Assembly (NCBI GenBank): GCA_016187925.1 | Contig: JACPIS010000006.1 | Coordinates: 1-64,000 of the forward strand | DNA length: 64,000 bases | Source: Opitutia bacterium | GTDB taxonomy: Bacteria > Verrucomicrobiota > Verrucomicrobiia > Opitutales > Opitutaceae | Reading direction: 5' to 3' | Part shown: piece by piece, positions 1,807 through 38,525 of the stretch | Layout: the number at the start of each line of letters is the position of its first letter | Position numbering within the stretch: the first letter of the stretch is position 1 | Position numbers and translations under genes: made by a program | The notes under the pieces: model-generated | Seen by the model: the letters and a program-made list of their open reading frames with translations, nothing else | What the model was told of the DNA's origin: nothing | The model's database searches: none

Positions 1807-4656
1807 TCAGGAGTTAAGGGCTTCTACGCAGCGAGGGCAAACTTCTCCGTGGGAAGTTGCTGACAGCGCCGGCACCCAGCGCCAGCAGCGCGGGCACCGG
1901 TGGTGGCCGCCGGTTTCGGCGCGTTGGGCGCCGATTTCGACGGCCGCGCCGGCCTTGGGTTCCAAGGCGACGCGGGAAACAATGAAAAATTCGGGCAGAA
2001 ACGTCCGGTGCTTCTCCAGCACGCGGAAAGCGTCGTCTGCGGCGGCGCCCGTGAAGGCGAGTGCGGCGTCGAGCGATTTGCCGATGGTGCCGGCCTGGCG
2101 CAGCGGCTCGAGCGTCTCGGTGGCCTTGGCGCGGAGCTTGAAGAGCTGGTCGAACTCGGCGGCGAGGGCCGCGTTGGCCCACTCGGCGGGCGCGACCGGC
2201 CAGTCCTGCAGATGGATGGAATCCTCGCTGTATTCCTTGCCGGTGGTCGCGTAGCTCCAGGCCTCGTCGGCGGTGAAGGTGAGGACGGGCGCGAGGAGCT
2301 TCACGAGCGCGTTGAAGATGGCGTGGAAGGCGGTCTGCGACGAGCGGCGGAGCGGGTGGGCGGCGCCGAGCGTGTAGAGGCGGTCCTTCAGGATGTCGTG
2401 ATACGTCGCCGACAGCGTGACTGCGCAGAACTGGTTGCAGAGCTGGTAGACGCGGTGGAACTCGTAGGCGTCGTAGGCCTTCGTGCACTCGGTGATGAGC
2501 GCGGCGGTCTGGTGCAGCGCCCAGCGATCGAGCGCATCCATGTCCTTGACGGCGACGGCGTGCTTCTGGGCATCGAAGTCGAAGAGGTTGGAGAGCTGGA
2601 ACCGGAAGGTATTGCGGAAAAGCCGGTAGGCCTCGCCCACGTTCTTCAGGATCTCGTCGTCGACCGGGATGTCGTCGCGGAAATCCTGCGAGGCGATCCA
2701 GAGCCGGATGACGTCGGCGCCGTGCTGGGCGATGTAGGCGTCGGCGGTCTGGGGCTTTTGGTAGGTCGAGCTCTTGGAGATTTTCTGGCGGTTCTTGTCG
2801 ACGATGAAGCCGTGGGTGAGCACGGCCTTGTAGGGCGCGCCGCCGAAGGCGATGACGCTGCACCAGAGCGAGGACTGGAACCAGCCGCGGTGCTGGTCGC
2901 TGCCCTCGAGGTAGAGGTCGGCGGGCCAATGCGTGCCGCCTTGGCCGCGCTTGAGCACGGCGGCTTGCGTCGAGCCGGAGTCGATCCAGACGTCGAGCGT
3001 GTCGCGGCCGCAGGTGAGGGACGCGGCGGCCGGCCAGCCGGCGGGCAATGTCACGCCGTCGAGGATCTGCGCGGCGGTGGAGGCGTACCAGAAGTTGGTG
3101 CCCTGGGTGGCGATCTTGTCGGCCACGGCGCGGATGACGCCGGCGTCGATGTAGGCCTGTTTGTCCGGACCGTAGAACGCGATGATCGGCACGCCCCACG
3201 AGCGCTGGCGGCTGATGCACCAGTCGGGACGCGATTCGACGGCGCCGCGGATGCGGGCCTCGCCCCAGGCGGGGATCCAGCCTTGCGCCTCGGCGACCTT
3301 GGTGATCTCGGCGAGCGCGACCTGACGGTGGCCGGCCTTGTCGAGCGAGACGAACCACTGGTCGACGGCGCGGAAGATGATGGGCGTCTTCGAGCGCCAG
3401 CAGTGCGGGTAGGAGTGACTGAGATTCTGCTTCGCGAGCAGGGCGCCGGTGGCCGCGAGCTTCTTCAGCACGGCGATGTTGGCGGGCGAGGTCTTTTTGG
3501 CGGCGAGGTCCTCGACGCTTTCGAGGCAGGTCAGGCCGACGAGGTCGGCGGGCACCTTGCCGTCGTTGAGGTATTTGCCGTCATCGCCGACCGGGCAATA
3601 AACTTCGAGGCCGTACTTCAGGCCGGTCTGATAGTCCTCGGCGCCGTGACCGGGCGCGGTGTGGACGCAACCCGTGCCGCTGTCGGTCGTGACGTAGTCG
3701 GCCAACACGACGGGCGAAGCGCGGTCGATGAACGGGTGGCGGGCCTGCAGGTGTTCGAGCTTGGCGCCGTGCAGGGTGAGCACGATGACCGGTTGCGCCT
3801 CGAGCTTGGCCGCGGTGGCGACGGAGCCGAGCAACGCTTGCGCGACGAGCAGGCGCTCGGCGCCGATGTCGGCCACGACGTAGTCCACCTCCGGATGCAC
3901 CGCGATCGCGAGGTTGGCGGGAATCGTCCACGGCGTGGTCGTCCAGATGACAATGAAGAGCGGCTTGTCGGTCGGCAGGCCGAACTTCGCGGCCTCGGTC
4001 GCGGGCACGGCGAACTTCACCCAGATGGAGGGCGAGACGTGGTCCTTGTACTCGATCTCGGCTTCGGCGAGGGCGGTCTCGAAGGGGATGGACCAGTAAA
4101 CGGGCTTCTTGCTGCGGTAGACGAGACCTTGCGCGACGAAGGCCGCGAACGTGCGGAGGACATCAGCCTCGAAGGCCGGGGCCTTGGTCTTGTACTCGTT
4201 CCTCCAGTCGGCGAGCACGCCGACGCGCTTGAACTGCGCCGTCTGCTTGGCGATCCAGCTCTCGGAAAATTCGTCGCACTTGGCGCGCAGCTCGGCGGTG
4301 GTGAGGGTGAGCTTCTGCTCCTGAATTTCGCGCGAGACCTTCTGCTCGATGGGCAGGCCGTGGCAGTCCCAGCCGGGCACGTAGGGCGTGCGGAAGCCGC
4401 GCATAGACTTGTAGCGGTTGACGAAATCCTTGAGCGACTTGTTCAGCGCGGTGCCGATGTGCACGTCGCCGTTGGTGAAGGGCGGGCCGTCGTGCAGCAC
4501 GAACGCCGGGCGGCCGGCGCGCTGCTGTTGGATGCGGTTGTAGAGGCCCAGTTTCTCCCAGTGCGCAATGCGCGCCGGCTCCCGTTGAACGAGGTTCGCC
4601 CGCATGGGGAACTCGGTCTTGGGAAGCAGGAGCGTGTCTTTCAGGTCTTGCGCCAT
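1807..4656 (-). CDS. ileS: Isoleucyl-tRNA synthetase
   Basis: A class I synthetase that charges tRNA-Ile in the cytoplasm and edits valine. The 949 residues carry the HIGH-type motif HIGT at 66-69 (inside VHIGTALNKSLKDF), the KMSKS-type loop KISKS near 626, and a C-terminal zinc-binding region with two CPRC motifs (CPRCWRW and CPRCVEAL) near the end. I chose ATG 4656 (MAQDLKDTLLLPKTEFPMR) because the 15 upstream residues of the open frame are not family-like. It heads the ileS-traR-lspA string. It is most like the bacterial type with a C-terminal zinc finger, which is usually mupirocin sensitive; that last point is family knowledge, not tested. Confidence 0.97.
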   Translation of the reverse strand: MAQDLKDTLLLPKTEFPMRANLVQREPARIAHWEKLGLYNRIQQQRAGRPAFVLHDGPPFTNGDVHIGTALNKSLKDFVNRYKSMRGFRTPYVPGWDCHGLPIEQKVSREIQEQKLTLTTAELRAKCDEFSESWIAKQTAQFKRVGVLADWRNEYKTKAPAFEADVLRTFAAFVAQGLVYRSKKPVYWSIPFETALAEAEIEYKDHVSPSIWVKFAVPATEAAKFGLPTDKPLFIVIWTTTPWTIPANLAIAVHPEVDYVVADIGAERLLVAQALLGSVATAAKLEAQPVIVLTLHGAKLEHLQARHPFIDRASPVVLADYVTTDSGTGCVHTAPGHGAEDYQTGLKYGLEVYCPVGDDGKYLNDGKVPADLVGLTCLESVEDLAAKKTSPANIAVLKKLAATGALLAKQNLSHSYPHCWRSKTPIIFRAVDQWFVSLDKAGHRQVALAEITKVAEAQGWIPAWGEARIRGAVESRPDWCISRQRSWGVPIIAFYGPDKQAYIDAGVIRAVADKIATQGTNFWYASTAAQILDGVTLPAGWPAAASLTCGRDTLDVWIDSGSTQAAVLKRGQGGTHWPADLYLEGSDQHRGWFQSSLWCSVIAFGGAPYKAVLTHGFIVDKNRQKISKSSTYQKPQTADAYIAQHGADVIRLWIASQDFRDDIPVDDEILKNVGEAYRLFRNTFRFQLSNLFDFDAQKHAVAVKDMDALDRWALHQTAALITECTKAYDAYEFHRVYQLCNQFCAVTLSATYHDILKDRLYTLGAAHPLRRSSQTAFHAIFNALVKLLAPVLTFTADEAWSYATTGKEYSEDSIHLQDWPVAPAEWANAALAAEFDQLFKLRAKATETLEPLRQAGTIGKSLDAALAFTGAAADDAFRVLEKHRTFLPEFFIVSRVALEPKAGAAVEIGAQRAETGGHHRCPRCWRWVPALSATSHGEVCPRCVEALNS

Positions 4657-25897: not shown

Positions 25898-26287
25898 ATG
25901 GCAGACGAGAAGAAACGGCGGCCGGTCGTCCTGCTCGTGGAGGATGAGGGACCACTGGCCGGCGCCGTGTGCGACAATCTCGAGGACGACTTCGAGTTCG
26001 AGGTGGCGGGCAACGCCGACGAGGCCTTGCTGCTGCTCGGCACGCGGCAGTTCGACGCAATCGTCAGCGACCAGATGATGCCGGGCAAGAAACAGGGGCT
26101 GGATTTCCTCGTCGAGGCGATGGAGCGGCAGCCGAACGCGAAGCGCATCCTTATCACCGGCTATGTGAATCCCGACCTGCTCGTGCGCAGCGTGCCGCTG
26201 GCCAATCTCAGCGCGTGCCTGATGAAGCCGATGAGCATGGCCGAACTGCGGCAGGCCCTGCACACCGCGCTGGGACTCAGCGCCTGA
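25898..26287 (+). CDS. Second stand-alone receiver protein
   Basis: A 129-residue single receiver domain: VVLLVEDEGPLAGAV with the acidic pair, DAIVSDQMMPGKKQGLDF with the phospho-acceptor, RILITGYVNPD with the switch Thr and ACLMKPMSMAEL with the lysine. It is related to the preceding receiver (shared TGY.(K/N)P.(M/L)L(L/V)RSV) and probably arose by tandem duplication. It is convergent with rpoN, 32 bases apart. The output of the pair is not visible in the window. Confidence 0.9.
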   Translation: MADEKKRRPVVLLVEDEGPLAGAVCDNLEDDFEFEVAGNADEALLLLGTRQFDAIVSDQMMPGKKQGLDFLVEAMERQPNAKRILITGYVNPDLLVRSVPLANLSACLMKPMSMAELRQALHTALGLSA

Positions 26288-26288
26288 C

Positions 26289-26306
26289 GCGCCGCGCTCG
26301 CGGCGC
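26289..26306. terminator. hairpin between converging receiver and rpoN genes
   Basis: GCGCCGCG and CGCGGCGC form a perfect inverted repeat with a very short centre. It lies in the 32 bases between the two stop codons. There is no T tract, so it may only work weakly as a two-way terminator. Confidence 0.35.
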
Positions 26307-26319
26307 CCGTCCGCCGGAC

Positions 26320-27777
26320 TCAGTCGTAACGCCGGCGCAGATTGCTCGGCAGCAGGCCGAGTTCCTCGCGGTACTTCGCGACCGTGCGCCGGGCGATCGT
26401 CAGACCCTTCTGCGTGAGCAAGCCGACGATGTCCTGATCGCTCAACGGCGCGCCCGGATCCTCGTTGGCGACGATGTCGGCGATCATCTCCTTCACGCTG
26501 GTGTTCGCCACGGACACGCCGGCCTGCGACTGGTAGCCGGAGGTAAAAAAGAACTTCATCTCGAAGACGCCGTGCGGGGTCTTGATGTATTTGTTGGCGA
26601 GCGCGCGGCTGACGGTCGTCTCGTGCACGCCGATGATGTCGGCGATCTGCGTCATCGTGAGCGGCTTCAGCTTCGAGACGCCCTCCTCGAAGAACTCGCG
26701 CTGGTGCTTGAGGATTTCGCGGGTGATGCGCTCGATGGTGCGCTGGCGTTGCTCGATGGCGTTGATGATGAATTTGCCGGAGCGGAGCTTCTCGCGCAGG
26801 TAGTCGCGCTCGTTCTTGCCCAGGGTGCCCTTGGCGATGAGGTCCTTGTAGGTGTTGCTGAGGCGCAGCCGGGGGATGTAGTCGCCGTTGAGGATGATTT
26901 TCCACTCGTCGCCGTCCTGCTCGACCGTGACGTCGGGCACGACGACGCGGTTGGAATCGTCGGCAAAGCGGCGGCCGGGCGCGGGATCGAGTCCGCCGAT
27001 CTCGCCGAGGGATTCCTGGATGATCTCGGGAGAGAGGCCCATCTTGCGGGCGATGTCGGGAATGCGGCGGCGCACCAGCAGGTCGAAATGGTCGCGGACG
27101 ATGCGGGCGGCGACGGATTTGTCGCGGCCCTTCTGGGCGAGTTGCAGGAGCAGGCAGTCGGAGAGGTTCTCGGCGCCGATGCCGGCGGGCTCGAAGCCGC
27201 GCAGGAGCTTGGCGCCGTTTTGCACGGTCTCGAGTGACAGGTGCGAGATGAGCGCGATGTCGGAGAGCGAGGTGGTGAGAAAGCCGCGGTCATCGAGGCT
27301 GCCGACGAGGTAGCGGACGGCTTCGCGCACTTCCGGCGGGCAGTCGGTCATCTCGGCCTGCTGCATGAGGTGCTCGGCGAGCGAGGTCTCCGTCGTGAGC
27401 GAGTCGAAGAAGTGCTGGCGGCGCTCCTCGTCCTCGGAGGAGCTGGCGCGGACGCCGCCGGTGTCGCTCATCGAGTCGCGCCAGTCCTGCCCGATCTTCT
27501 CGAGCATCTGGAAGTCCTGCTTGAACTCCATTTCCTCGCGCGCGTCGGTCTCCGGGCCGGAGTTGTCGGCGCCGCTGCCGGCGTTTTTCTCGAGGGAGAC
27601 GCCGTCCATCGGCAGTTCCTCGAGGGCGGGGTTGGACTGGAGTTCTTCCTGGATGGCGGCGCGGAGATCGAGCGCGGCGACTTGCAGGATCTTCAGCGAC
27701 TGCCGCATCTGCGGCGCCAGCACGAGTTGCTGCGTCTGCCGCTGTTGTAAGCTCTGTTGAAAGCCCGGACCGCTCAT
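26320..27777 (-). CDS. rpoN: RNA polymerase sigma-54 factor
   Basis: The 485-residue protein has the full sigma-54 plan. Region I is glutamine-rich (SLQQRQTQQLVLAPQMRQSL), an acidic region II follows, then the core-binding domain, then the helix-turn-helix TQIADIIGVHETTVSRALAN, and the RpoN box ARRTVAKYRE near the C-terminus, which reads the -24 element. No activator ATPase gene is seen in this window. It starts 12 bases after a Ser/Thr protein kinase gene and is surely in one transcript with it. Confidence 0.97.
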   Translation of the reverse strand: MSGPGFQQSLQQRQTQQLVLAPQMRQSLKILQVAALDLRAAIQEELQSNPALEELPMDGVSLEKNAGSGADNSGPETDAREEMEFKQDFQMLEKIGQDWRDSMSDTGGVRASSSEDEERRQHFFDSLTTETSLAEHLMQQAEMTDCPPEVREAVRYLVGSLDDRGFLTTSLSDIALISHLSLETVQNGAKLLRGFEPAGIGAENLSDCLLLQLAQKGRDKSVAARIVRDHFDLLVRRRIPDIARKMGLSPEIIQESLGEIGGLDPAPGRRFADDSNRVVVPDVTVEQDGDEWKIILNGDYIPRLRLSNTYKDLIAKGTLGKNERDYLREKLRSGKFIINAIEQRQRTIERITREILKHQREFFEEGVSKLKPLTMTQIADIIGVHETTVSRALANKYIKTPHGVFEMKFFFTSGYQSQAGVSVANTSVKEMIADIVANEDPGAPLSDQDIVGLLTQKGLTIARRTVAKYREELGLLPSNLRRRYD

Positions 27778-27789
27778 GGGGGCGTGGGA

Positions 27790-28794
27790 TTACCGCTGGC
27801 TTTCGAGGGTGGAAATCGGCGGCGGGGGCGAGACCGGAGGGAAGCTGGTGGGGGCGGAGGGGGTGGACGCGAAAACTTCCTGAAGGTAGACGGCGAGCTT
27901 CTCGTTGGTGGGCCCGTAGCGATCGCTGTAGAGATAAAGCTCGAGGTCGGTCATCATCTCGGCGGCGCTCTGGTAGCGCTGGGCACGGTCGCGCTGCAGG
28001 GCGCGCTGGATGATGGCCTCGAGCTTGGGGTCGATGTCGGCCCGCAGGGAGGAGAACTGCGGGATGGGCATGGAAAGGATGTTGCGGCGCGACTCGATGC
28101 GGTTGGCCGAGCGGAAGACGTTTTTGCCGAGCAGCAGCTCGGTCAGCACGATGCCGAGCGAGAAGAGGTCCGAGCGGCCGTCGGTCACGGCGTAGCTGGC
28201 ACCCTCGGGGGAGAGGTACTCGTCCTTGCCCGGGATGACCTTGCCTTCCTCGTTGTACATGAGGTTAAGGGCCTTCGCTATGCCGAAGTCCGTGAGCTTC
28301 ACGTCGCCTTCGTAGGCGAGCAGGACGTTCTTCGGGTTCACGTCGCGGTGGACGATGCCGAGCAGATGGCCGTCGGTATCGCGCTTGGCGTGGGCGTAGC
28401 TGAGACCGCGGCAGACGCGGGAGATGATGAACGCCGCCATGTCGATCGGGATGGGGCGGGCGAGCTCGGCGTGGCGGTCGAGGAACTGCTCGAGATTCAT
28501 GCCGCGCACGAATTCCATCGTCATGAAATACTGCCCACCGATCTGACCGAGGTGGTAGGTCTGGACGATGTTGGTGTGGATGAGATCGGCCACGAGGCGG
28601 GCCTCGCCGATGAAGTTTTTCTGGAACTCCTCGATGCTCGAGTATTCCTCGCGAATCAGCTTGATCGCGACAATCTTGCGGAACTGGCCGGCCCCGCGTT
28701 GGACCGCTTCGTACACCACGCCCATGCCGCCCTCGGAGATTTTCCGGGTCAGCTCGTAATGGAGCTCGTTGAAGATGTGCTTGAGCGAAGCCAC
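27790..28794 (-). CDS. Hanks-type Ser/Thr protein kinase
   Basis: The 334-residue protein has a complete kinase domain from about 14 to 290: glycine loop [20 protein letters not shown] with the ATP lysine, [15 protein letters not shown] with the C-helix glutamate, catalytic loop HRDVNPKNV and DFG, and KDEYLSPEG in place of the usual APE. A Ser/Pro-rich tail follows. There is no membrane segment or sensor domain, so it is cytoplasmic. The start is GTG 28794. Placement 12 bases ahead of rpoN suggests a shared transcript and possibly a functional link to sigma-54; that link is inference. Confidence 0.93.
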
Positions 28795-28892
28795 GTAGAA
28801 ACAAAAACGCCGGCTTCGGTCGCTGGCAAGAACTCAGCGCGGGAATTTGCACGCTTCCTGCTACAGGATTGACACGCGGCTCTTGCCGCCGG

Positions 28893-29997: not shown

Positions 29998-30041
29998 TTG
30001 TGCCGTAACCAAACTGCGTAAACTTTAACCCCCGCCACGCC

Positions 30042-30383
30042 ATGTCGACTAATCTAACCAAACGAGAAATCGTCCTGGAGATCTACGAGAAGACCGGCTT
30101 CCCGCAGAAGCAGATTCAGGATACCGTCCAAATGACCCTCGATATCGTCATGGATGCACTGGCCGCCGGCCGCAACGTCGAGCTCCGCAACTTCGGCGTC
30201 CTCGAAGTTCAGGTGCGCAAGGCCCGTGTCGGCCGCAATCCGAACAAGCCCGAGACCGAGGTCGTCATCCCGGAGCGCGCCGTCGTGAAGTTCAAGTCCG
30301 GCAAGATTCTCAAGCAGAAGATCAAGCAGCTCAGCCTTGAGAAACTGAAGAACAACCCGCCGCCTCCGGCCTCGGCCGAGTAA
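30042..30383 (+). CDS. HU/IHF-family DNA-binding protein
   Basis: A 113-residue histone-like protein that bends DNA. The HU/IHF core is complete: LTKREIVLEIYEKTGFPQKQ, VELRNFGVLEVQVRKARVGR, then the arm tip RNP in GRNPNKPET and VVKFKSGKILK. A short Lys/Pro-rich tail (KLKNNPPPPASAE) extends beyond the standard ~90 residues. It starts the transcript that continues into hisS, 23 bases downstream. Whether it acts as HU or IHF cannot be decided here. Confidence 0.92.
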   Translation: MSTNLTKREIVLEIYEKTGFPQKQIQDTVQMTLDIVMDALAAGRNVELRNFGVLEVQVRKARVGRNPNKPETEVVIPERAVVKFKSGKILKQKIKQLSLEKLKNNPPPPASAE

Positions 30384-34888: not shown

Positions 34889-35302
34889 TCAGGCGAGATC
34901 CTGCGGGCCGAAGGCGCCGGGCAGCAGGTCCTTGATGGTGGTGTCGGTGCGCGCCTTGCCGTCGCAGACGGAGATGACGCGCACGCCGGGGCCGAATTCG
35001 TAGATGACCTGCCGGCACGCGCCGCAGGGGGCCGTGGCGGTCGGGGTGGGCGTGTAGACGACGACGCAGCGCAGCTTGCGCTCGCCGTGGGCGGCGGCGG
35101 CGAAGATGGCGGTGCGCTCCGCGCAGTTGGTCAGGCCGTAGGAGGCGTTCTCGACGTTGCAGCCGGAGTAGATCTTCCCGGACGACGTGAGGATCGCGGC
35201 GCCGACGGCGAAGCCGCTGTAGGGCGCGTAGGCATTGCCGGCGGCCTGGCGGGCGGCTGCCTCGAGGCGGCGCAACTGGGCGGGGGTGAGTTCTTCGGCC
35301 AT
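34889..35302 (-). CDS. cdd: Cytidine deaminase
   Basis: Deaminates cytidine and deoxycytidine to uridine forms. The 137-residue protein is the short tetrameric type: AYAPYSGFAVGAAI, GCNVENASYGLTNCAERTA with the zinc Cys and the proton-shuttle Glu, and APCGACRQVIYEF with the other two zinc cysteines. Its start overlaps the kbl stop by one base (TGATG), so it is translated by coupling with kbl. Confidence 0.95.
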   Translation of the reverse strand: MAEELTPAQLRRLEAAARQAAGNAYAPYSGFAVGAAILTSSGKIYSGCNVENASYGLTNCAERTAIFAAAAHGERKLRCVVVYTPTPTATAPCGACRQVIYEFGPGVRVISVCDGKARTDTTIKDLLPGAFGPQDLA

Positions 35303-36492
35303 CAGAGGCCCAATTCTTTCTTCACCTCGGTGAATTTCTCAATCGCAAAGGCGAGGTCCTCGCGGCTGTGCGCGGCGGAGACCTGCGTGCGGATGCGCGC
35401 CGTGCCCTGCGGCACGACCGGGTAGAAGAAGCCGATGACGTAGACGCCCTTCTCGAGCATGCGCGCCGCGAACTTCTGCGAGAGCGCGGCGTCGCCGAGC
35501 ATGACGGGCACGATCGGGTGCGTGCCGGGCTTGATGGTGAGACCGGCCTTGGTGAGGCCGTCGCGGAAGAACTTCGTGTTGGCCTCGAGCTTGTCGCGCA
35601 ACTCGGTCGAGCGGCTGAGCATCTCGAGGCACTTCAGCGACGCGGCGGCGATTGACGGCGCGACGGTGTTGGAGAACAGGTAGGGGCGGGAGCGCTGGCG
35701 CAGCAGATCGATGATCTCCTTCTTGCCGGAGGTGTAGCCGCCGCTGGCGCCGCCGAGCGCCTTGCCGAGCGTGCCGGTGAAGACGTCGATGCGGCCCATG
35801 ACGCCGCAGTGTTCGTGCGTGCCGCGGCCGGTCTGGCCCATGAAGCCGACAGCGTGCGAGTCATCGACCATGACGAGCGCATGGTACTTGTCGGCGAGGT
35901 CGCAGATGCCCTTCAGGTTGGCGATGAAGCCGTCCATCGAGAACACGCCGTCGGTGGCGATCATTTTGAAGCGGGCGCCGGCGGCGTCGGCCTCCTTGAG
36001 CTTGCCCTCGAGGTCGGCGAGGTCGTTGTTCTTGTAACGGTAACGCTGCGCCTTGCAGAGCCGGATGCCGTCGATGATCGAGGCGTGGTTGAGTTCGTCG
36101 GAGATGATGGCGTCCTCCGCGCCGAGCAGCGTCTCGAACAGGCCGCCGTTGGCGTCGAAGCACGACGAGTAGAGGATGGTGTCCTCGGTGCCGAGGAACC
36201 GGGCGATGGCGGCCTCGAGGTCCTTGTGCAGCTGCTGCGTGCCGCAGATGAAGCGCACGGAGGCAAGGCCGTAGCCCCAGCGGTCGAGCGACGCGCGCGC
36301 GGCGGCGATGAGCTCGGGGTTGTCGGCGAGGCCGAGGTAGTTGTTCGCGCACATGTTCAGCACCTTCTGTCCGCTCGCCACGGCGATGTGCGCGGTCTGG
36401 TGCGTGGTGATGATGCGCTCGCGCTTGTAGAGCCCGGCGGCGTCGATCTCGGCGAGTGTCTTCTTCAGGTGGTCGTAGTAGGCGGAATTCAT
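35302..36492 (-). CDS. kbl: Glycine C-acetyltransferase (2-amino-3-ketobutyrate CoA ligase)
   Basis: A PLP enzyme that splits 2-amino-3-ketobutyrate with CoA into glycine and acetyl-CoA, the second step of threonine breakdown through Tdh. The 396 residues show [41 protein letters not shown] and [14 protein letters not shown] with the PLP lysine (GK in [11 protein letters not shown]). It is very close in pattern to E. coli Kbl. The neighbour tdh, 90 bases upstream across a palindromic repeat, carries an in-frame stop, so the substrate supply may be lost unless another threonine dehydrogenase exists. Confidence 0.95.
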
Positions 36493-36511
36493 AGGCAGAG
36501 GATTGGTTGGG

Positions 36512-36563
36512 TGGAGGGCTCAGCTCCGGCTGAGCCGCGGTCCGGCGGGAGCCGGGCCCTCCA
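36512..36563. repeat. palindromic repeat, TGGAGGGCTC family
   Basis: The ends TGGAGGGC and GGCCCTCCA pair, and inside are two hairpins, GGCTCAGCTCCGGCTGAGCC and GGTCCGGCGGGAGCCGGGCC-like arms. It fills the tdh-kbl space and could act on mRNA stability or termination there. Confidence 0.7.
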
Positions 36564-36581
36564 GAAAGGCAGGCGTGTGGT

Positions 36582-37622
36582 TCACTCCCAGTTCAGGACG
36601 ATCTTGCCGGACTTGCCGGCGCCCATGAGCTCGAAGCCTTCCTGGAACTGGGCGACAGGCAGGCGGTGGGTGATGACGGGGGTGATGTCCATGCCGCCGA
36701 GCACGAGCTGGGTCATCTTATACCACGTCTCGAACATCTCGCGGCCGTAAATGCCCTTCAGGTGAAGCATCTTGAAGACGATCTTGTTCCAGTCGACGGT
36801 GGCTTCGCCCGGATGCACGCCGAGCAGAGCGATGCGGCCGCCCATGACCATGTTGTCGATCATCTGGTTCAGCGCGGCGGAGCTGCCCGACATTTCCAAG
36901 CCCACGTCGAAACCCTCGGTCATGCCGAGCTCCTTGTGCCAGACGTCGGCGAGGTTCTCCTTCGCGACGTTCACGGCGCGGATGGGGCCGAGCTTTTTGG
37001 CGAGCTAGAGGCGGCCGTCGTTGATGTCGGTGATGACGATGTGGCGTGCGCCGGCGTGCTGGGCGACGGCGATGGCCATGCAGCCGATGGGGCCGGCGCC
37101 GGTGATGAGCACGTCCTCGCCGACCATGTCGAACGAGAGGGTGGTGTGCACGGCGTTGCCGAGCGGGTCGAAGCACGAGACGACGTCGAGATCGAGGCCG
37201 GCAGGCACCTTCCAGACGTTGGAGGCGGGCACGACGACGTAGTCGGCGAACGCGCCGTCGCGGTTCACGCCGACGCCGATGGTGTTGGGGCACAGGTGGC
37301 GGCGGCCGGCGCGGCAGTTGCGGCAATGCCCGCAGACGATGTGGCCCTCACCGGTGACGATCTGGCCCTTGGCGAAGCCGGTGACGCCGGCGCCTACGTC
37401 CTCGACGGCACCGACATACTCGTGGCCGATGATGAGCGGCGGCTTGATGGTGCGCGCGGCCCACTTGTCCCATTTGTTGATGTGCACGTCGGTGCCGCAG
37501 ATGGACGTCTTCTTGATCTTGATGAGGACGTCGTTGACGCCGGGCGTGGGGACCGGAGCTTCGGTCATGATGAGGCCGGGACCGGCGGTGGGTTTGACGA
37601 TGGCGCGCATTTTGGCGGGCAT
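36582..37622 (-). pseudogene. tdh: L-threonine 3-dehydrogenase interrupted by an in-frame amber codon
   Basis: Both halves together match E. coli Tdh along the whole length (346 codons). The first half has [27 protein letters not shown] with the catalytic zinc site, four cysteines in [15 protein letters not shown], and the NAD site [13 protein letters not shown]. The second half has [22 protein letters not shown] and [13 protein letters not shown]. At 37005-37007 a TAG codon falls between ITDINDGRL and [12 protein letters not shown], where E. coli has glutamate (YRLELARK), so one G-to-T change from GAG explains it. No frameshift is present. It is either a recent loss of function, a sequencing error, or readthrough. 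Start ATG 37622 or 37610. Confidence 0.85.
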
Positions 37623-37755
37623 GGCGAGTAGGGTTGAGGGCAAGTTATGACACGCCGGTCCCGCTACAACCCCGAACGTCCGCAGCCGTGCGCTTTAAGC
37701 GCGTTTAACTGTGCCGCCGCGCCGGCTAATTTCGCCGCGCGGGGCTTGGCCCGGT

Positions 37756-37863
37756 GTGGGAGGGGCTTTACGCCCGACGGAGATTGGATGGGAATGCCTG
37801 GAGCTGCGGCGCCCTCGCCGCGGTCGAGCGCCATGACGCGCCGGGGCGTAAAGCCCCTCCCGC
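37756..37863. repeat. long palindromic repeat, GGGAGGGGCTTTACGCCC family
   Basis: The arms GGGAGGGGCTTTACGCCC (37758-37775) and GGGCGTAAAGCCCCTCCC (37844-37861) are perfect inverted copies of 18 bases with a 68-base middle that holds further short inverted segments. It lies between tdh and the alkA-like gene. Confidence 0.85.
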
Positions 37864-37886
37864 ATTCTATCTTCCGCCCGCGCCGC

Positions 37887-38525
37887 TTATTCCTGCGCCG
37901 GTCCGAGCGAGCGCCAGAGATACCAGCTCGCCACGCTGCGGTAGGGCGACCAACGCCGGGCATGCTGGAGGATGACCTCGGGTTTCGGATCGCGGCGTTT
38001 GCGATAGAGATTTTTGAAGGCAAGCCGGATGGCGAAATCCCCCGTCGGCATCACGTCGGGCCGGCCGAGGTGGAAGATGAGCAGCATGTGCACCGTCCAC
38101 GGGCCGATGCCGCGCACTTCGGTCAGACGCGTCACGAGCTCGTCGTCCGCCAGCTTGTGCGCCTCGCGCAGCGAGGGCACGACGCCCGCGCCGCACTTGG
38201 CCGCGAGGTCGCGCGTCGCCGCGAGCTTGGCGCGCGAGAGCCCGGCGCCGCGCAACTCCTCGTCGCTCACCGCGGCGAGCGATGAGGCGTTCGGTCCGCC
38301 GTGGCGGTCGAGCAGGGCGAGCACGCGGGCGTGGATCGTCGCTGCGGCCTTGCCGTGCAGCTGCTGGTAGACGATCGAGCGCAGCAACGCCTCGAACAGG
38401 CTGTCGGCCTTGAGCAGTTTCAGTTCGAACGGTCCGGTGCGGTCGATCAGCGCGGCCAGCACGTCGTCGTTGGTGCGGAGGTGTGCGACGGCCTCCGCCG
38501 GGTCGTAACGGTGACGAGGCCTCAT
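37887..38525 (-). CDS. DNA-3-methyladenine glycosylase (AlkA-type HhH-GPD)
   Basis: Removes alkylated purines from DNA. The 212-residue protein has the helix-hairpin-helix LTEVRGIGPWTVHMLLIF and, ~20 residues later, the catalytic aspartate in MPTGDFAIRLAFK. The segment LLRSIVYQQLHGKAAATIHARV is typical of the compact AlkA group without the N-terminal domain. The next gene downstream is an alkylguanine-DNA methyltransferase, so the two form a small repair neighbourhood, though a repeat separates them. Confidence 0.92.
   Translation of the reverse strand: MRPRHRYDPAEAVAHLRTNDDVLAALIDRTGPFELKLLKADSLFEALLRSIVYQQLHGKAAATIHARVLALLDRHGGPNASSLAAVSDEELRGAGLSRAKLAATRDLAAKCGAGVVPSLREAHKLADDELVTRLTEVRGIGPWTVHMLLIFHLGRPDVMPTGDFAIRLAFKNLYRKRRDPKPEVILQHARRWSPYRSVASWYLWRSLGPAQE

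Follow-up and report, generated by a model that had tools for sequence, protein, structure and literature searches.

A threonine 3-dehydrogenase gene with a single in-frame TAG next to an intact kbl in a draft genome of the Opitutaceae

The window, by which we mean the whole stretch of 64,000 nucleotides that was analysed, comes from an Opitutia bacterium of the Opitutaceae (Verrucomicrobiota), whose draft genome comprises 3,995,137 bases in 48 contigs, with a completeness of 100 and a contamination of 0.64; the window is part of contig C19. It contains a locus for L-threonine 3-dehydrogenase (Tdh), an enzyme of the zinc-dependent alcohol dehydrogenase superfamily. The features of the region, listed in the direction of reading, are as follows:

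37887-38525, minus strand: HhH-GPD DNA glycosylase-like gene, the upstream neighbour of tdh (Pfam PF00730, E 6.2e-12)
36582-37622, minus strand: complete tdh locus, 346 codons, with one internal stop and a terminal TGA (from the translation)
37008-37622, minus strand: 5' part of tdh, codons 1-205 (PRK05396 profile 1-201, 334.4 bits; Pfam ADH_N), which we take to be the catalytic-domain part and the start of the NAD domain
37005-37007, minus strand: in-frame TAG, codon 206 (from the translation and a codon-by-codon comparison with relatives)
36582-37004, minus strand: 3' part of tdh, codons 207-346 and the terminal TGA (PRK05396 profile 203-341, 195.3 bits; Pfam ADH_zinc_N)
35302-36492, minus strand: kbl, glycine C-acetyltransferase, 396 aa, intact (PRK06939, 681 bits, cut-off 460)
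34889-35302, minus strand: cdd, cytidine deaminase, 137 aa, intact (PRK05578, 154.5 bits, cut-off 74)

The kbl gene starts 89 bases past the end of tdh, and its stop is overlapped by the ATG of cdd by one base. Both downstream genes pass the cut-offs of their equivalog models, which bears out the impression of an earlier note on this DNA that they look functional. A promoter scan from 36300 to 37950 found no promoter-like sites, and the two terminator-like sites in the same stretch lie on the opposite strand and are near chance level. It was also seen that the nearest relatives differ gene by gene across 35302-37622: tdh goes with loci L176 and L177 (93-94%), kbl is nearer to L035, L036 and L037 (92%) than to L176/L177 (87-88%), and over its first 120 bases tdh resembles the same-genus copies more closely. 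Judged from these identities, the mismatch across tdh and kbl may reflect recombination.

We compared tdh with NCBIfam models and with relatives rather than letter by letter with the E. coli protein. In PRK05396 (341 positions), the gap between the matches of the two halves, at profile positions 1-201 and 203-341, corresponds to the stop or its close neighbourhood only; in TIGR00692 (340 positions) the halves match 1-198 and 201-340. These matches and the translation confirmed what the earlier note had described, a tdh split by one TAG with its halves collinear with Tdh. With the TAG read as glutamine, the protein passes the cut-offs of PRK05396 (550 vs. 380 bits) and TIGR00692 (482.9 vs. 458.35 bits). 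A full-length match above the curated cut-off was obtained only with the TAG read as a residue, and the open reading frame is interrupted by it at codon 206. A chance reading frame was ruled out, since identity to relatives is high in both halves and runs on past the stop. The earlier note had described zinc and NAD motifs as intact on either side of the stop, and the cysteine and glycine motifs for zinc and NAD were also seen by eye in the translation. The TAG is the only lesion, and no second one was seen in the translation. The closest other family member in the same genome is only 29% identical to Tdh, so the genome holds no spare Tdh of the same type.

A Tdh match at E ≤ 1e-100 is present in 121 of 252 family genomes (partial at contig ends in some), and a stop within the match was found in one of the 121, the window's own; the threshold misses heavily decayed remnants of tdh and missed, for example, that of genome G164. 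In the loci examined codon by codon, the stop at codon 206 occurred only in the window's own copy, which is seen there as L001 and L005. The three nearest copies have GAA, GAA and GAG at this codon (nearest copies at 93-94% identity), copies of the same genus have GCC, GCG, GAA or GAG, and wider relatives have GAT/GAC, AAA, TCC, GGC and others, the residues at the site being Glu, Ala, Asp, Lys, Ser, Gly, Asn, Arg, Leu or Gln. The earlier statement that the family has glutamate (GAG) here is therefore right for the nearest copies, as GAA or GAG, and too narrow elsewhere, where Ala, Asp and others are found. Because the residues vary, glutamate is not fixed at site 206, and it is the stop that matters rather than the loss of a side chain. 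Two other apparent interruptions, a TAA in L027 and a stop in L072, were rejected because they precede the start codon, and L044/L192 (G083) was rejected because of an N gap.

Selection on tdh was estimated from Nei-Gojobori distances among 18 sequences, that of the window and 17 intact copies of the more than 100 found. The terminal-branch dN/dS of the window's tdh was 0.115, the intact copies giving 0.033-0.195, and the values before and after the stop were 0.093 and 0.095. About 138 amino-acid changes would be expected on a fully unconstrained branch and about 16 were seen; for a functional background dN/dS of 0.08-0.15, the 95% upper bound on the share of the branch that was neutral is 0.03-0.13. 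As the branch resembles those of intact copies, also after the stop, a real break would cover at most about 3-13% of it. In an earlier count against one near relative, the codon differences on the window's side were 26 synonymous and 9 nonsynonymous (stop included), and those on the relative's side 37 and 12. The window's changes at codons 104, 194, 214, 305 and 308 fall at positions that are little or not variable among 12 other copies and could hint at slight relaxation, though the totals do not show it.

The window's tdh has the disabling lesion of a pseudogene, the stop at codon 206, and shows neither relaxed selection nor further lesions, which is compatible all the same with a very young pseudogene. 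The earlier note had left three options, a very recent loss, a base-call error or a read-through codon. That a loss would be very recent is supported by the lack of any excess of amino-acid changes before or after the stop and of a second lesion, while a dedicated decoder of UAG found no support. The low dN/dS past the stop is equally expected under a base error or read-through.

The lack of support for a decoder comes from the rest of the genome. RF1 is intact (466 bits vs. a cut-off of 423). We found 62 tRNA genes, with the anticodons of 60 assigned by ARAGORN and those of two weak matches missed by that program, UGU and UCG, read by eye; a CUA anticodon is absent among the 62, a set from which a tRNA may be missing as the genome is a draft. 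No pyrrolysyl-tRNA synthetase was found above the cut-off, the PylS model reaching at most 22 bits vs. 178; of 14 control genomes, one scored above this cut-off. In 464 kb of the genome, 345 gene-end-like stops were counted, 241 of them TGA, 64 TAA and 40 TAG (that of tdh included). The genome therefore has neither a UAG-reading tRNA nor PylS among the genes found, nor a loss of RF1, and the stop is not conserved among orthologs, no other tdh copy examined having it. A change of the genetic code or a suppressor tRNA was rejected on the strength of the RF1, tRNA and PylS results.

At L148 3931-7395 (G000:C9:179930-183394), at least 22 tRNA genes, or 24 if two further Rfam-model matches are counted, form a dense array within 3.5 kb. 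Many of its tRNA scores are low, the spacers are CCA-TTTT-like, and further tRNA-like stretches lie in between; in the part of these read by eye, no CTA loop was noticed. We take the array to resemble those carried by mobile elements or phages.

Comparison of the window with stretches from relatives revealed no recognisable interruption of any conserved gene besides tdh. The stops at 36522, 24328, 13228, 29952 and 25462 precede likely start codons, and the placements at 26269-28863 and 30032-30379 (63-64% identity, two stops each) were judged to be shadow frames, another frame matching relatives better. An initial scan by codon usage was overwhelmed by antisense frames; an improved scan, covering 464 kb of the 3,995 kb, gave 25 candidates among 327 gene-end-like stops. 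The scan detects stops only, and 22 of the 25 candidates were judged only by whether a start codon lies close by or the score past the stop is low. Two candidates proved to be boundaries of different genes (DksA-type/signal peptidase II and AAA/ScpA). The tdh stop stood out: the coding score is high to either side of it and the 24 codons past it contain no ATG, and no other break as clear was found in the 464 kb. The assembly is thus not visibly rich in errors of this sort.

At thresholds of E ≤ 1e-150 for kbl and E ≤ 1e-100 for Tdh, kbl was found in 120 of the 252 family genomes; 114 have both genes, 6 only kbl, 7 only tdh and 125 neither, so a Tdh match accompanies kbl in 114 of 120 genomes. 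This near-strict pairing makes an intact kbl beside a dead tdh unusual and counts against a null allele in the window. A Tdh match is lacking in 131 of the 252 genomes (some of them incomplete or with contig breaks), which indicates that loss of tdh is tolerated in the family. Assembly breaks account for three of the kbl-only genomes, G010 and G250, with a piece of tdh at a contig end, and G083, with an N gap; in G151 and G183, tdh was not found on the stretch examined. Of the seven tdh-only genomes, G009 proved to be truncated at the end of a contig. In G164 (L041; Lacunisphaera MAG Baikal-deep-G237, SIBQ01000005.1) a decayed tdh adjoins an intact kbl: a TAG replaces Trp codon 51, and codons from about 83 to 330 are missing. 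Tdh can thus decay first, a precedent that rests on one MAG. The tdh of the window could represent such a loss at a less advanced stage, arisen in an independent event. The remnant, with its amber codon and large in-frame deletion, lies at L041 5603-5883 (L196 about 3737-4003).

From these data tdh was probably a single-copy gene that was functional until lately and now has a recent nonsense mutation, and a recent null allele or strain polymorphism is the most likely reading of the stop. The TAG call rests on the consensus of one draft assembly, with one genome per species, and there is an appreciable, if clearly smaller, chance that the assembled base is wrong and the true tdh intact. Such a consensus error would fit a single substitution in an otherwise fully constrained gene, a stop seen in no other tdh copy of the family and the strict tdh-kbl pairing; the assembly is a draft of 48 contigs, and with 63 of the 345 sense codons one step from a stop, one wrong base easily suffices. 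The absence of other interrupted conserved genes recognised in the window, and of any comparably clear one in the 464-kb scan, speaks against it.

Functional read-through, in which a near-cognate tRNA decodes UAG-206 on some ribosomes and the stop acts as a dimmer that leaves a little full-length Tdh, seems improbable to us. Constraint is as strong past the stop as before it, relatives have Glu, Ala, Asp, Lys, Ser, Gly or other residues at site 206, so that any inserted residue might work, and a study of in-frame stops in bacteria (PMC7918605) proposes that such stops are read through; however, the sign on which that study relies, a stop common to relatives, is seen in no relative examined. 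RF1 is intact, no CUA anticodon occurs among the 62 tRNA genes found, the PylS model stays at 22 bits vs. 178, and TAG, at 40 of 345 gene-end-like stops (that of tdh included), ends ordinary genes. We give very little credence to the fuller version, that UAG-206 is real, fixed in the species and leaky, with tdh under purifying selection, its expression reduced to a small part of what it was, and kbl kept intact for it. It is scarcely credible that the C-terminal part restarts at the GTG at 36974 and complements the N-terminal part as a second protein. A 130-aa open reading frame with this GTG start exists, but the GTG lies ten codons past the stop within conserved sequence, no ribosome-binding sequence was seen at it by eye, and the break, as placed by the profile match, falls in the NAD domain, which we take to be of Rossmann type. 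We thus rank a recent null allele as most likely, then a base-call error, and read-through has the least support. All three are of known kinds.

In the case of a null allele, RF1 would end translation at UAG-206, and the resulting piece of 205 residues, which lacks the C-terminus and the greater part of the NAD-binding half, would be inactive. The cell would lose the step from threonine to 2-amino-3-ketobutyrate; kbl, which has a start of its own, would still be translated, perhaps less strongly owing to polarity, and would be left without its usual substrate. The stop might mark the onset of a fixed loss, or it might be a variant that only part of the cells or strains carry. A real stop would show the loss of the threonine dehydrogenase pathway at its first step, while kbl is still intact, in a family whose genomes mostly have both tdh and kbl or neither. 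It also calls for caution, as a single base decides whether annotation calls this pathway present. Gene breaks of this kind are common in bacteria, and the tdh case looks ordinary and opens no long-standing question.

A literature search found no publications on threonine 3-dehydrogenase pseudogenes in Verrucomicrobia. When read through, the gene agrees with known Tdh (PRK05396, TIGR00692; tdh-kbl operon) in being collinear over its full length, above both cut-offs, and in adjoining kbl, and it differs by the one in-frame TAG. According to Belinky et al. (2021, PMC7918605), in-frame stops are widespread in bacteria and mostly short-lived; the genes treated there share with the window's tdh a single in-frame stop and low dN/dS around it, whereas inclusion in their set needs the stop in at least two species and that of tdh was seen once. 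The Lacunisphaera remnant is likewise a tdh with an amber codon beside an intact kbl; unlike the window's gene, with its one lesion, it has the stop at codon 51 and about 250 codons deleted, and is clearly dead.
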